Notes under the pieces: generated by a model
What the model was told of the DNA's origin: nothing
The model's database searches: none
Seen by the model: only the letters and a program-made list of their open reading frames with translations
Origin: Thermoplasmata archaeon
GTDB lineage: Archaea > Thermoplasmatota > Thermoplasmata > Lutacidiplasmatales > UBA184
Assembly: GCA_021821785.1 (NCBI GenBank)
Contig: JAKACD010000007.1
Coordinates: 1-49,862, forward strand
Direction of reading: 5' to 3'
DNA: 49,862 nt
Part shown: in pieces, positions 41,731-49,862 of the stretch
How the letters are laid out: the number at the start of each line of letters is the position of its first letter
Numbering within the stretch: the stretch's first letter is position 1
Program-made: the position numbers and the translations under genes

Positions 41731-43212
41731 GTGCGGAGGACCAAGATCCTGGCCACGGTGGGCCCGGCCTCCGACGACCCCGAGCGGCTCCGCGCGCTGA
41801 TCGCGGCCGGGGTCGACGCCTTCCGCCTCAACTTCTCGCACGGGAGCGACGTCGAGCACCGGGCCACGCTGCGGCACGTGCGCACCGCGGCCCATCGAGC
41901 GGGCCGTGAGATCGCCATCGTGGGCGACGTGCAGGGACCCAAGATCCGCATCGGGGAGATCGGGGCGGGATCGGTGCGTCTGCGACCCGGGCAGGACTGG
42001 ATCCTCGATGCGCGGACCGAACCGGGCGACGAACGTCGGGTGTGCGCCCAGGTACCGACCTTCGACGGGATCGCCCATGTCGGCGACCCCGTGCTCCTGG
42101 GAGACGGGAGCGTCGAGCTCACGATCGCGCGCGTCCGCCCTGAATCCCTGGTGGCAAAAGTGACCGCGGGTGGGGTGGTCACTTCCCACGCCGGCCTCTT
42201 CCTACCGCATGCCCAGCTGCGCACTTCGGTCTTCGCGGCGAAGGACCGGCGCGATGCGGCTCTCGGGATCGAGGAGGGAATCGACTACCTGGCCCTCTCG
42301 TTCGTTCGGGAAGCCGGTGACCTCGACGAGACCCGACGATGGCTGGACGCCCGCTCCGGCGGGCGTGACGTGGGACTGATCGCCAAGATCGAGCGGGCCG
42401 AGGCCCTGCGCTCGATCGACGGGATCCTCGAGAAGGCGGACGGGATCATGGTAGCGCGGGGCGATCTCGGGATCGAGGTTCCCCTCGAACGTCTCGCGCT
42501 CGAGCAGAAGCAGCTCGTACGCACCGCGAACCGGGCCGGGAAGTTCGTGATCGTGGCCACGCAGATGCTCCTGAGCATGGTGAGCTCGCCTCGGCCCAGC
42601 CGCGCCGAGGCCACCGACGTCGCGAACGCCGTGCTGGACGGCGCCGACGCCGTCATGCTCAGCGAGGAGAGCGCGGTCGGGCAATACCCCGTCGAGTCGG
42701 TCCAGTGGCTCGACCGCATCGCCCGGGCGACCGAGAGCTCGTTCGATCCGCGACCGCTGCGCGACGACGATCGGAGCCCGCTGCCCGAGGACGAGCGCGC
42801 GGTCGCCGCGGCGGCGGTGCGGCTCGCGGAGGGCGTGCGGGCCCGGGCGATCGTGACGCCGACGCACTCGGGCCGGACGGCCCGCCTGGTCGCCCGGCTG
42901 CGGCCGAGCTGCCCCGTGGTCGCCCTCTCGAATTCCCCAGCGACCCGGCGCCGCCTCGCTCTCGTGGGAGGCGTTACCTCCCTTCCGGCTCCGCTCCACC
43001 GGGACCTCGTGGAGCTGCGGACCCGCTCGGCGGAGCTCGTGCGGTCCGCCGGCCTCGGGGTCGGGGGCCCGATCGTCCTGACCGCCGGCTACCCGATCGA
43101 GGGCCGACCGACCAACCTCGTCACGTTGGTCGGTCCGGCGCCGTCACGATCCGGGGCCGCCGCGCGCGCGGCCGCACGAACGACTCCTCGACCTCGCCGC
43201 GCCGCCGGCTGA
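41731..43212 (+). CDS. pyk: Pyruvate kinase
   Basis: Glycolytic enzyme making pyruvate and ATP from phosphoenolpyruvate; about 493 residues. VRRTKILATVGPAS, RLNFSHGSDVEH, GDVQGPKIRIG, LIAKIERAEAL, GIMVARGDLGIEVP and ATDVANAVLDGADAVMLSEES cover the N, A and B domains. Small departures exist: VATQMLLSM for the usual ATQMLESM, SEESAVGQYP for SGETAxGKYP. The GTG start is 23-28 nt after TAATAG (41703-41708). The final 24 or so residues (Arg/Ala/Pro-rich) extend beyond the normal TNLV... end and overlap the MFS gene by 92 nt on the other strand; they may be dispensable. Confidence 0.93.
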   Translation: MRRTKILATVGPASDDPERLRALIAAGVDAFRLNFSHGSDVEHRATLRHVRTAAHRAGREIAIVGDVQGPKIRIGEIGAGSVRLRPGQDWILDARTEPGDERRVCAQVPTFDGIAHVGDPVLLGDGSVELTIARVRPESLVAKVTAGGVVTSHAGLFLPHAQLRTSVFAAKDRRDAALGIEEGIDYLALSFVREAGDLDETRRWLDARSGGRDVGLIAKIERAEALRSIDGILEKADGIMVARGDLGIEVPLERLALEQKQLVRTANRAGKFVIVATQMLLSMVSSPRPSRAEATDVANAVLDGADAVMLSEESAVGQYPVESVQWLDRIARATESSFDPRPLRDDDRSPLPEDERAVAAAAVRLAEGVRARAIVTPTHSGRTARLVARLRPSCPVVALSNSPATRRRLALVGGVTSLPAPLHRDLVELRTRSAELVRSAGLGVGGPIVLTAGYPIEGRPTNLVTLVGPAPSRSGAAARAAARTTPRPRRAAG

Positions 43213-46978: not shown

Positions 46979-48112
46979 TTACTTACCTTTTCGGGTCGCC
47001 GATTTTCGTCGGGGCGCCGCGCGCCGGGCTTTCGGGGAAGGGCGTCGGGCCGCCCGCGGCCTCGTGGGTGGCGTCTCTGCGGTAGCGGGAGCCGGGGGCG
47101 TCCCCCGAACGGTCGGAGGGGGTGCTGGCGCGACACGCGGCTCCGCGCCGGCCTCGGGACGCGGCGGGGGCGGCAGGCCAAGGTGGCGGCAAAGGGCCGA
47201 CTCGCGATCGTAGGGAAGACCGAGGCGCCGCGCCTCGACCCGCTCTTCCTCCGCGATCTCCTTCGGCCCGGTGTGGGAAAGGGCCACGGCATGGAGGAAT
47301 CGCAGTTGCGGGTCCTCGGGGGTCCGCGAAAGGAGGGCCTCGATCTCGACCCGCGCGGCGGGCCAGTCCGCGAGGTCGATCAGGGCGGCGACCAGGTGAG
47401 CCCGCACCTCGGTCCGGGCCTCGTCCTCGGCAAGCAGCGCCCGGTACATCTCGATCTCCTGCTGCGGGAGCGCCTTCGCGCCCAGCACGGCCGCCTTGCC
47501 GAGACGGGCCTCGACATCGTCCGGACGGGTCGCGAGGACCTCATCGAACGCGCGGTCCGCGTCGGTCACCAGGCCCAGGGCGAGGAGCGCGCGTCCGATC
47601 CCCGTGCGCGCGGGGAGGAATCCCGGCTTGAGCTCGCTCGCCTGACGAAAGAATCGGAGCGCGAGCGCCGGTACCCCCCAGTCCAGCCAGGTCCGGGCCC
47701 GGTGCATGACCCCGTCGAGCTGCTGGGCGCTCGGCAGGAGCCGACGTCCCTCGGGCCGCGGCGCCCGGGGCTCCTCTCCGAGAAACGCCTCGAGCCCGAG
47801 CTGCCGGGCGAGCTCGGCAAAGCGGGCCCCTTCCACGAGCGTCCCGCCGCGTCGGACCACGTCCTGGGAGATCGCGAGCGGAAGATGGCCCGGGGTCAGG
47901 ACCACGAGGTGGACCGGGAGCCCGTTCCCCTCGTCGAAGAGGTGTCGGATCGTCTCGAGGGAGACCTGGTTCGGGTCCTCGAGGAACGCATAGAGGAATC
48001 CGTCCCCGGTGCGCAGGACGAGGCCCTCGGCAGTGGGCCGGGCCGCGTCGAGACGCTGGCCCATCGCCTCGACCAGAGCGTTGGCCAGTTCGGTAAACGG
48101 AAGGGACGCCAC
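46979..48112 (-). CDS. TPR-repeat protein with basic tail
   Basis: A 377-residue protein. The first 120 residues form an unrecognised alpha/beta domain (LANALVEAMGQRLDAARPTAEGLVLRTGDGFLYAFLEDPNQ... VVLTPGHLPLAISQDVVRRGGTLVEG). Residues about 135-285 carry TPR-like helical pairs (ALALRFFRQASELKPGFLPARTGIGRALLALG). The C-terminal 60-80 residues are Pro/Ala/Arg/Lys-rich and end RRKSATRKGK, likely nucleic-acid or surface binding. GTG 48112 lies 20-30 nt from TATTTAA (minus strand, about 48134-48140). First gene of a minus-strand run continuing into BtuF. Confidence 0.75.
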   Translation of the reverse strand: MASLPFTELANALVEAMGQRLDAARPTAEGLVLRTGDGFLYAFLEDPNQVSLETIRHLFDEGNGLPVHLVVLTPGHLPLAISQDVVRRGGTLVEGARFAELARQLGLEAFLGEEPRAPRPEGRRLLPSAQQLDGVMHRARTWLDWGVPALALRFFRQASELKPGFLPARTGIGRALLALGLVTDADRAFDEVLATRPDDVEARLGKAAVLGAKALPQQEIEMYRALLAEDEARTEVRAHLVAALIDLADWPAARVEIEALLSRTPEDPQLRFLHAVALSHTGPKEIAEEERVEARRLGLPYDRESALCRHLGLPPPPRPEAGAEPRVAPAPPPTVRGTPPAPATAETPPTRPRAARRPSPKARRAAPRRKSATRKGK

Positions 48113-48133
48113 GAGTCGGGCAAGGACGGGTGT

Positions 48134-48142
48134 GTTAAATAC
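48134..48142. promoter_or_regulatory. Shared bidirectional TATA element (TPR gene / polyprenyl synthase)
   Basis: TTAAATACG on the plus strand reads GTATTTAA on the minus strand, so one box has a TATA-like core in both directions. It is 26-34 nt before GTG 48168 (+) and 22-30 nt before GTG 48112 (-), the leaderless distance for both genes, and is the only AT-rich block in the 55-nt gap apart from scattered bases. Confidence 0.6.
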
Positions 48143-48167
48143 GATAGTTCTCCAACGGCAAACTGCC

Positions 48168-49229
48168 GTGGACCTAGCCGCCCTGTATCGGTACCTCCCC
48201 GCGCTGGAGCGGACGCTTCGGGCCGCCTATCGGCGCGAGCGGCGGGCGGCGCCGGCGTCCATCCGCCCCTACGTCGACGTGAACGAGGAGTTCACTCTCC
48301 GGGGCGGCAAGCGGTTTCGCGCGATCCTGGTCCTCGCCGGTTATCACCTCGCGACCGGGAAGGACCCGCGTCCTGCCCTTCCGGCCGCGGCCGCGCTCGA
48401 ACACTTCCAGAGCTGGATGCTGATCCACGACGACATCATCGACCATGCCGATACGCGCCGCGGGGGCCCGGCCGTCCACCGCTCGCTCGCCGCGCTCCAC
48501 GCGCGGGAAGCGCGCATCGGCTCGAGCGAGGATTACGGGGTCGGCATGGGGATCACGCTCGGCGACCTCGAGGAGCCGTTCACGGTCGAGGCGCTCCTCG
48601 CGGCCCCGGCCTCCCCCCGGGCCCGCCTCAACGCCCTCGCGGAGTACGTGCGCATGACCCGGCTCACGGCCTACGGCCAGGCGCTCGACATCCGGAACGG
48701 GATCCTTCCCCCCGAGACCGTCACCGAGGAGGACGTCCTCACTGTCCACCGGTTCAAGTCGGCGGTCTATACGGTCGCCTCGCCGCTCAAGATCGGCGCG
48801 CTGCTCGGCGGAACGTCCCGAGCCCGCCTCACCGACATTGAATCCGTGGGGATCGATCTCGGGATCGCCTTCCAGTTGCGCGACGACGTCCTCGGGGCCG
48901 GCTTCGACGCTGGCGCCTCGGGGAAGAGCTCGAACGACCTCGTGGAGGGCAAGCGGACGCTCCTGGTCGTGAAGGCGTGGCAGGCGGGCAGCGAGACCGA
49001 CCGGAACCGTCTCGCGCGGGTGCTCGGCAACGCGAGCGCGAGCCCCGAGGATGTGGAGCGGGCCCGGGAGGTGATCCGCGCGACCGGGAGCCTCGACTAT
49101 TCGGAGCGCCGGATCGAAACCCTCACGGCCCGCGCCCTGCGCCGGCTCGATCGGAGCCGGACGATCCGGGCCTCGGGAAAGCCGCTCGTGCGCGAGATCG
49201 CGGACCGGCTCGTGCGCCGATCGGCGTGA
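48168..49229 (+). CDS. idsA: Polyprenyl (geranylgeranyl/farnesyl) diphosphate synthase
   Basis: Isoprenyl chain elongation enzyme for archaeal membrane lipids; 353 residues. LRGGKRFRAILVLAGYHLA, the first Asp-rich motif LIHDDIIDHADTRRGGPAVH, FKSAVYTVASPLKIGALLGG and the second Asp-rich region LRDDVLGAGFD are the family's signatures. The second motif reads DDVLG with the later Asp in GFD. The chain length cannot be told with confidence. GTG 48168 is preferred by the AT box at 48134-48142; the reading frame extends upstream across the promoter. The TnpB element follows 92 nt downstream. Confidence 0.92.
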   Translation: MDLAALYRYLPALERTLRAAYRRERRAAPASIRPYVDVNEEFTLRGGKRFRAILVLAGYHLATGKDPRPALPAAAALEHFQSWMLIHDDIIDHADTRRGGPAVHRSLAALHAREARIGSSEDYGVGMGITLGDLEEPFTVEALLAAPASPRARLNALAEYVRMTRLTAYGQALDIRNGILPPETVTEEDVLTVHRFKSAVYTVASPLKIGALLGGTSRARLTDIESVGIDLGIAFQLRDDVLGAGFDAGASGKSSNDLVEGKRTLLVVKAWQAGSETDRNRLARVLGNASASPEDVERAREVIRATGSLDYSERRIETLTARALRRLDRSRTIRASGKPLVREIADRLVRRSA

Positions 49230-49248
49230 CGAGGCCGGCGAGCGCAAG

Positions 49249-49268
49249 CCCCCGTTTTCAGACGGGGG
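49249..49268 (+). repeat. Hairpin upstream of TnpB, IS200/IS605 end-like
   Basis: CCCCCGT-TTTCAG-ACGGGGG: 7-bp perfect stem (extendable by G-T and A-T pairs), 6-base loop, 54 nt before tnpB. IS200/IS605 elements carry subterminal hairpins of this style at their ends, so this may be the left end, or the right end of a lost neighbour. Confidence 0.55.
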
Positions 49269-49321
49269 TTAGCGAGCCAATCATTATCGCGTCGGCCGCG
49301 CCGGGAGGCGGGCTACCTCCG

Positions 49322-49862
49322 ATGTACCGGCCTCAGAAGTACCGCCTCTACCCGTTCCTCGATCGAGAACGCGAACTGCTCCGGCCATTCGAGGAGCTAC
49401 GGTTCCGGTGGCACTACGCCCTCGAACGGCGGCAGGAGGCGGGGCGGAAGGAGCGGCGGTCCCTCTCCTATGCCGACCAGTGCCGGGACCTCGCGCGGTG
49501 GCGAGCGTACGACCGGGACGGCATCGGTCGAGTGTATGGGCACGGGGCGCAAGAAACGCTGGCCCGCCTCCACGACGCATTCCCGCACTTCTTCTGCCGC
49601 GCGAAGGGGGGCGAACGTCCCGGGTTCCCGCGCTTCAAGCGAGAGGTCATGTCGATGGGCTACCCGGACTCCAACGGGTCCGGGGCGATCGCGCCGGGAA
49701 GGAACGGCACCGGGCGTCTCCATCTCTCATGAGTGGGCGACCTGCCCATCGAGCTCCACCGCGCACCGCCCGAGGGTCGGGTCAAGACCTGCATCGTGAG
49801 GCGGGAGGGCGACCGGTGGTATGCCGTCCTCGTCTACGCGGGGGCGGATCCCGCGCCGCCGC
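49322..49862 (+). pseudogene. tnpB: IS200/IS605-family TnpB, interrupted by in-frame TGA and cut by window end
   Basis: RNA-guided nuclease/OrfB family of the IS605/IS1341 group; only the N-terminal about 180 codons are visible. YRPQKYRLYPFLDRERELLRPFEELRFRWHYALERR, the RAKGGERPGFPRFKRE segment and, after the stop, VGDLPIELHRAPPEGRVKT with RREGDRWYAVLVYA are TnpB-typical. The frame is interrupted by TGA at 49730-49732, where the family has a Lys/Arg-like position between LHLS and VGDLP; the same frame stays open to the window edge. The stop could arise from CGA by one C-to-T change. A GTG directly follows the stop, so a split protein is possible. Confidence 0.8.

Follow-up and report, generated by a model that had tools for sequence, protein, structure and literature searches.

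A TnpB-only element with an in-frame TGA at a contig end of a Thermoplasmata-like archaeon, very probably an inactivated and decayed copy

Results

An interrupted tnpB gene at the end of a contig

The window (the whole stretch of DNA analysed, 49862 bases) ends where contig C2 ends, in an assembly of 1.69 Mb that comprises 99 contigs and is 91% complete. Its right-hand end carries a polyprenyl synthetase gene followed by the left part of a transposable element with an interrupted tnpB gene. The features are:

48009-49229, plus strand: neighbour gene, polyprenyl synthetase (ORF; Pfam PF00348, E 8.7e-44)
49227-49230, plus strand: TGAC, left boundary and putative target or transposon-adjacent motif (homology between C2 and contig C37 starts here)
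49231-49862, plus strand: left portion of an IS200/IS605-like (IS1341-type) element, truncated where the contig stops (alignment, copy comparison)
49249-49268, plus strand: left-end hairpin CCCCC...GGGGG (alignment, same place in most relatives; fold)
49322-49729, plus strand: tnpB codons 1-136, N-terminal region (ORF, alignment to relatives; weak PF12323)
49730-49732, plus strand: in-frame TGA replacing a sense codon of all 11 aligned relatives (alignment; also present in contig C69)
49733-49862, plus strand: tnpB frame past the TGA, 43 codons, stopping at the contig end ahead of the RuvC core (ORF, alignment)

The TGA is codon 137 of tnpB and lies in frame with the ATG at 49322, with 408 nt between them (ORF list and reading of the sequence). 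Around it the frame is otherwise open, for 136 codons before and 43 codons after, up to the window end, which truncates the gene at codon 180. This bears out the first-pass annotation, which had described a single TGA in an otherwise open tnpB: the alignment to relatives keeps one frame before and after the TGA, and the C2 copy itself shows this one lesion only. The RuvC core is absent from the window because contig C2 ends before reaching it.

The gene belongs to a TnpB family with intact members

The gene had been recognized as tnpB, rightly so. With codons 1-136 as the query against 103 genomes of the same family (its own genome among them), matches were obtained in 23; ten relatives share 69-77% identity with the window copy over 172-180 aligned residues spanning the TGA, and an eleventh shares 59% over 175 residues, likewise across the TGA. 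At the TGA column, these 11 relatives carry Met (ATG) in seven cases, Arg (AGG) in three and Lys (AAG) in one, and none of them is split at this position. The suggested origin of the stop from CGA by a single mutation finds no support in this column: CGA occurs in none of the 11, and none of the codons seen is one substitution away from TGA. The terminal stop of tnpB is visible in nine of the relatives and is TGA in all nine, the other two frames running off their locus. We also considered whether an internal TGA is a habit of the family and rejected it, given that among the 55 matches listed for codons 1-136 across the 103 genomes, five have an in-frame stop and all five are TAG.

The window's part of tnpB scores 16.6 bits against PF12323, below the cut-off of 21. 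In the two intact relatives that were scanned (L016 and L018), PF12323 (HTH), PF01385 (OrfB_IS605) and PF07282 (TNB) are all above cut-off, and L016 matches solved TnpB chains such as 8h1j_A, which we take to be ISDra2 TnpB, the match to this chain covering residues 42-408 of 444 (E 2e-43). The relatives' alignment further contains GVDLGLS, EDL/EDM and DRDLNAA, presumably the D/E/D catalytic residues of RuvC. When the L016 protein was searched against named contigs, it found eight loci, seven in Thermoplasmata metagenome bins and one in Nocardiopsis (34% identity); the Thermoplasmata-like assignment of the window is drawn from these loci.

Element edges

The left-edge TGAC includes the stop codon of the polyprenyl synthetase gene (TGA, 49227-49229) and, judging by sequence comparison, probably serves as a target or transposon-adjacent motif. 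Among ten relatives aligned at this edge, eight have TGAC, L018 has TGGC, and L023 has neither of the two motifs nor the left hairpin. The right edge, GATGTCAC, is present in seven of ten aligned relatives, L018 and L023 each deviate from it by a single letter, and L021 is too short to tell; contigs C6 and C69 of the window's own genome end in the same hairpin followed by this edge, as in the relatives. Subterminal hairpins and fixed edges, which we take to be marks of IS200/IS605-like elements, are thus both found, in keeping with a TnpB-only (IS1341-type) element.

A separate observation concerns the position of the left edge relative to genes. Across 17 left edges found by pattern (window 49227-49230, L007 11821, L066 1208, L016-L022, L038-L039, L060-L061, L064 and L067-L068), an ORF of at least 100 aa ends on the TGA of TGAC in seven, whereas among the 223 TGAC sites of the window the same holds for 28 (Fisher test, one-sided, 0.005), a background that comes from one genome only and from GC-rich DNA with many spurious ORFs. 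Scanning L040, L065 and L069 yielded no left-edge site. It may be that insertions beside stop codons are the ones that selection tolerates.

Transposase

No Y1 transposase (TnpA) is above cut-off in the window's own genome; the one match, on another contig, scores 19.4 bits where 23 would be needed. This match, on contig C40 (about 42947-43039), lies in a 71-codon open frame that resembles the relatives' copies and looks like the remnant of a transposase C-terminus. A Y1 transposase is above cut-off in four of the eight genomes searched, and around the relatives' transposase loci we found no convincing element ends, only scattered mismatched matches. Given the sub-threshold score in the own genome and the want of convincing ends near the relatives' transposases, we do not class the element as an autonomous IS605 element, which would carry tnpA with tnpB; no Y1 transposase lies within it.

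Remnant copies in the same genome

No intact TnpB was found in the assembly: the protein of an intact relative matches only pieces on C2, C69, C78, C6 and C37 (E 0.1), and PF01385 has no match in the genome at E 10. PF07282 has one match above cut-off, on C6, and six elsewhere below it (10.7-20.5 bits). Contig C37 matches the left end of C2 at 114 of 114 bases, from TGAC up to where C37 stops, while upstream of TGAC the flanks of the two differ. Contig C69 matches C2 at 220 of 223 bases, the TGA included; past the TGA it continues as far as about codon 189, shortly ahead of the start of RuvC in the relatives, and then jumps to the last stretch of tnpB, lacking both the RuvC core and the zinc ribbon. 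Beyond the TGA its frame stays open for 63 codons, and a further TAG lies near the contig tip. Contig C6 starts at codon 53 and is identical to C2 over 99 of 99 bases; after codon 85 it continues directly in the zinc ribbon. It too lacks the RuvC core, and the zinc ribbon that it keeps is partial (PF07282, 27.4 bits against a cut-off of 26.3), this domain being found neither in the window nor in C69. The right ends of C6 and C69 have 96 of 99 bases in common. Contig C78 holds a more distant short copy that agrees at 250 of 339 aligned columns, with 13 gaps; it contains a TAG and is without the core.

Both deletions can be placed on short sequences that occur at the two joined sites. The 13-nt sequence at the C69 join recurs exactly near the gene end in four of the six relatives inspected, and L021 has it, but for one mismatch, at the start of RuvC; the 12-nt sequence at the C6 join is shared without a difference by window codons 82-85 and the L018 zinc ribbon. 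On C6 (locus L006, positions 1-321) tnpB has an internal deletion, yet its frame runs through to the terminal TGA; what is left are codons 53-85, a piece of the zinc ribbon and the C-terminal tail. Two other left-end matches were set aside: one on C16 (E 0.0037) as chance, as it has no matching hairpin by eye and only a 9-letter right-end-like site with one mismatch, and one on C13 (E 0.048), taken as chance, its site not being found again by pattern.

Given that there are two left ends (C2 and C37) and two right ends (C6 and C69), and that C2 is intact where C6 is deleted, the pieces would make up two copies besides C78, one formed by C2 and C69, the other by C37 and C6. If C2 and C69 do belong together, the TGA is in one copy only, assembled twice with few differences; if they do not, the TGA has spread with the element. 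With a genome of 91% completeness whose contigs break at these very repeats, it is possible that an intact tnpB copy is hidden.

Signs of decay and selection

Of 93 columns that are invariant in ten relatives, 10 are changed in the window copy; the same scoring of each of these relatives against the other nine gives 0-7 of 93-100 columns. Pairwise dN/dS between the window copy and the ten relatives is 0.13-0.26. Among the intact relatives it is 0.09-0.22 in 17 of 18 listed pairs (45 in total) and 0.32 in one very close pair. Relative L023 was excluded from both measures as too distant. Since the dN/dS of the window copy is little above that of the intact relatives, its inactivation looks recent or weakly marked.

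Discussion

Taken together, the window very probably carries an inactivated copy of a TnpB-only element (IS1341-type, IS200/IS605) in a Thermoplasmata-like archaeon, an ordinary pseudogene of a kind that decays through deletions between short repeats. Of the four options that the first-pass annotation had offered for the TGA, inactivation fits best. This reading builds on what can be seen directly, namely the TGA, a second left end, deleted right halves, relatives with open frames, and an assembly in which no intact TnpB was found. What speaks against it is that C2 itself shows a single lesion, that its dN/dS is only slightly raised, that PF07282 has six sub-threshold matches elsewhere in the genome, and that an intact copy could be missing from the incomplete assembly. 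The element lies after a TGAC that includes the polyprenyl synthetase stop codon; we propose that its tnpB gained the TGA at codon 137, where UGA would simply terminate translation. The RuvC core and zinc ribbon have probably been lost as well, through deletion between short direct repeats, as in C69, which would belong to the window copy or to its sister. The copies may have been moved by a transposase supplied in trans or since lost. The first-pass annotation had held that many other disruptions downstream, marking an ordinary pseudogene, would refute its observation; such lesions exist if C69 is the window copy or its sister.

It is unlikely that the TGA is an assembly or sequencing artefact, the true codon being a sense codon. 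The TGA does lie about 130 bases from a contig end and inside a repeat; four of the five remnant contigs (C2, C37, C6 and C69, not C78) end within the element, and of the three differences between C2 and C69 in 223 positions, two fall within 25 bases of a contig tip. However, C2 and C69 agree fully at the TGA and in the sequence around it, which in C69 lies over 90 bases away from the tip, and the other lesions of the family (the TAG in C78, the core deletions) are independent of this base. A plain sequencing error, one of the options raised at the outset, is made less likely by the recurrence of the TGA in C69, with the reservation that C2 and C69 may be two halves of a single copy.

Could the deleted copies still serve a purpose? 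In known TnpB elements, the guide RNA scaffold lies at the tnpB 3' end, and copies that keep this end together with the element ends might persist as small trans-mobilised or regulatory units, which we consider very unlikely. The C6 copy, being in frame across its deletion, would encode an N-terminal region joined directly to a partial zinc ribbon. It is extremely unlikely that the gene is split, with translation restarting at GTG 49733 and the two part-proteins cooperating or acting as regulators: this GTG directly follows the TGA, but by eye no ribosome-binding sequence can be made out just upstream of it, the 63 codons past the TGA in C69 hold neither RuvC nor zinc ribbon, and no aligned relative is split there. 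Programmed UGA readthrough or recoding, including selenocysteine insertion, to give a full-length TnpB has a practically negligible chance, for although the frame stays open for 43 codons past the TGA, the same codon ends the gene in every relative with a visible stop, the relatives carry Met, Arg or Lys at the position, and the C69 copy with the same TGA has no RuvC core. A look for selenocysteine machinery, as had been advised, returned no SepSecS at E 1 in this 91% complete genome and 14 tRNA-Sec matches, all below cut-off, of which the eight scanned were seven ordinary tRNAs and one no tRNA; on these searches and the relatives' TGA stops, genetic recoding was rejected. A caution follows for similar cases: contig ends can fall inside such repeats, and a lone stop there should not be taken as recoding.

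The inactivated element is a further case of the known decay pattern of archaeal TnpB-only elements. It adds a Thermoplasmata-like example of decay by repeat-mediated core deletion, which in itself matters little. ISDra2 TnpB (8h1j_A) is matched by the intact relative L016; the window copy, unlike ISDra2 TnpB, is interrupted and cut, no nuclease core being found in the genome's remnants. For Halanaerobium hydrogeniformans, the published account describes the decay of many IS605 copies and notes a transposase without strong cis preference (PMC7290912). The likeness lies in the many degraded copies of one element per genome; the Halanaerobium element differs in being bacterial and in having tnpA within it (PMC7290912). 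For Haloquadratum walsbyi, the published account describes IS1341-type, TnpB-only elements with near-terminal palindromes that are mostly pseudogenes, and IS605-type elements in which core deletion between direct repeats has produced PATEs with the ends kept (PMC3119063). Compared with these, the remnants found here come from another archaeal lineage and still keep much of tnpB; the main traits are shared: archaeal TnpB-only elements whose cores are lost and whose ends are kept (PMC3119063).
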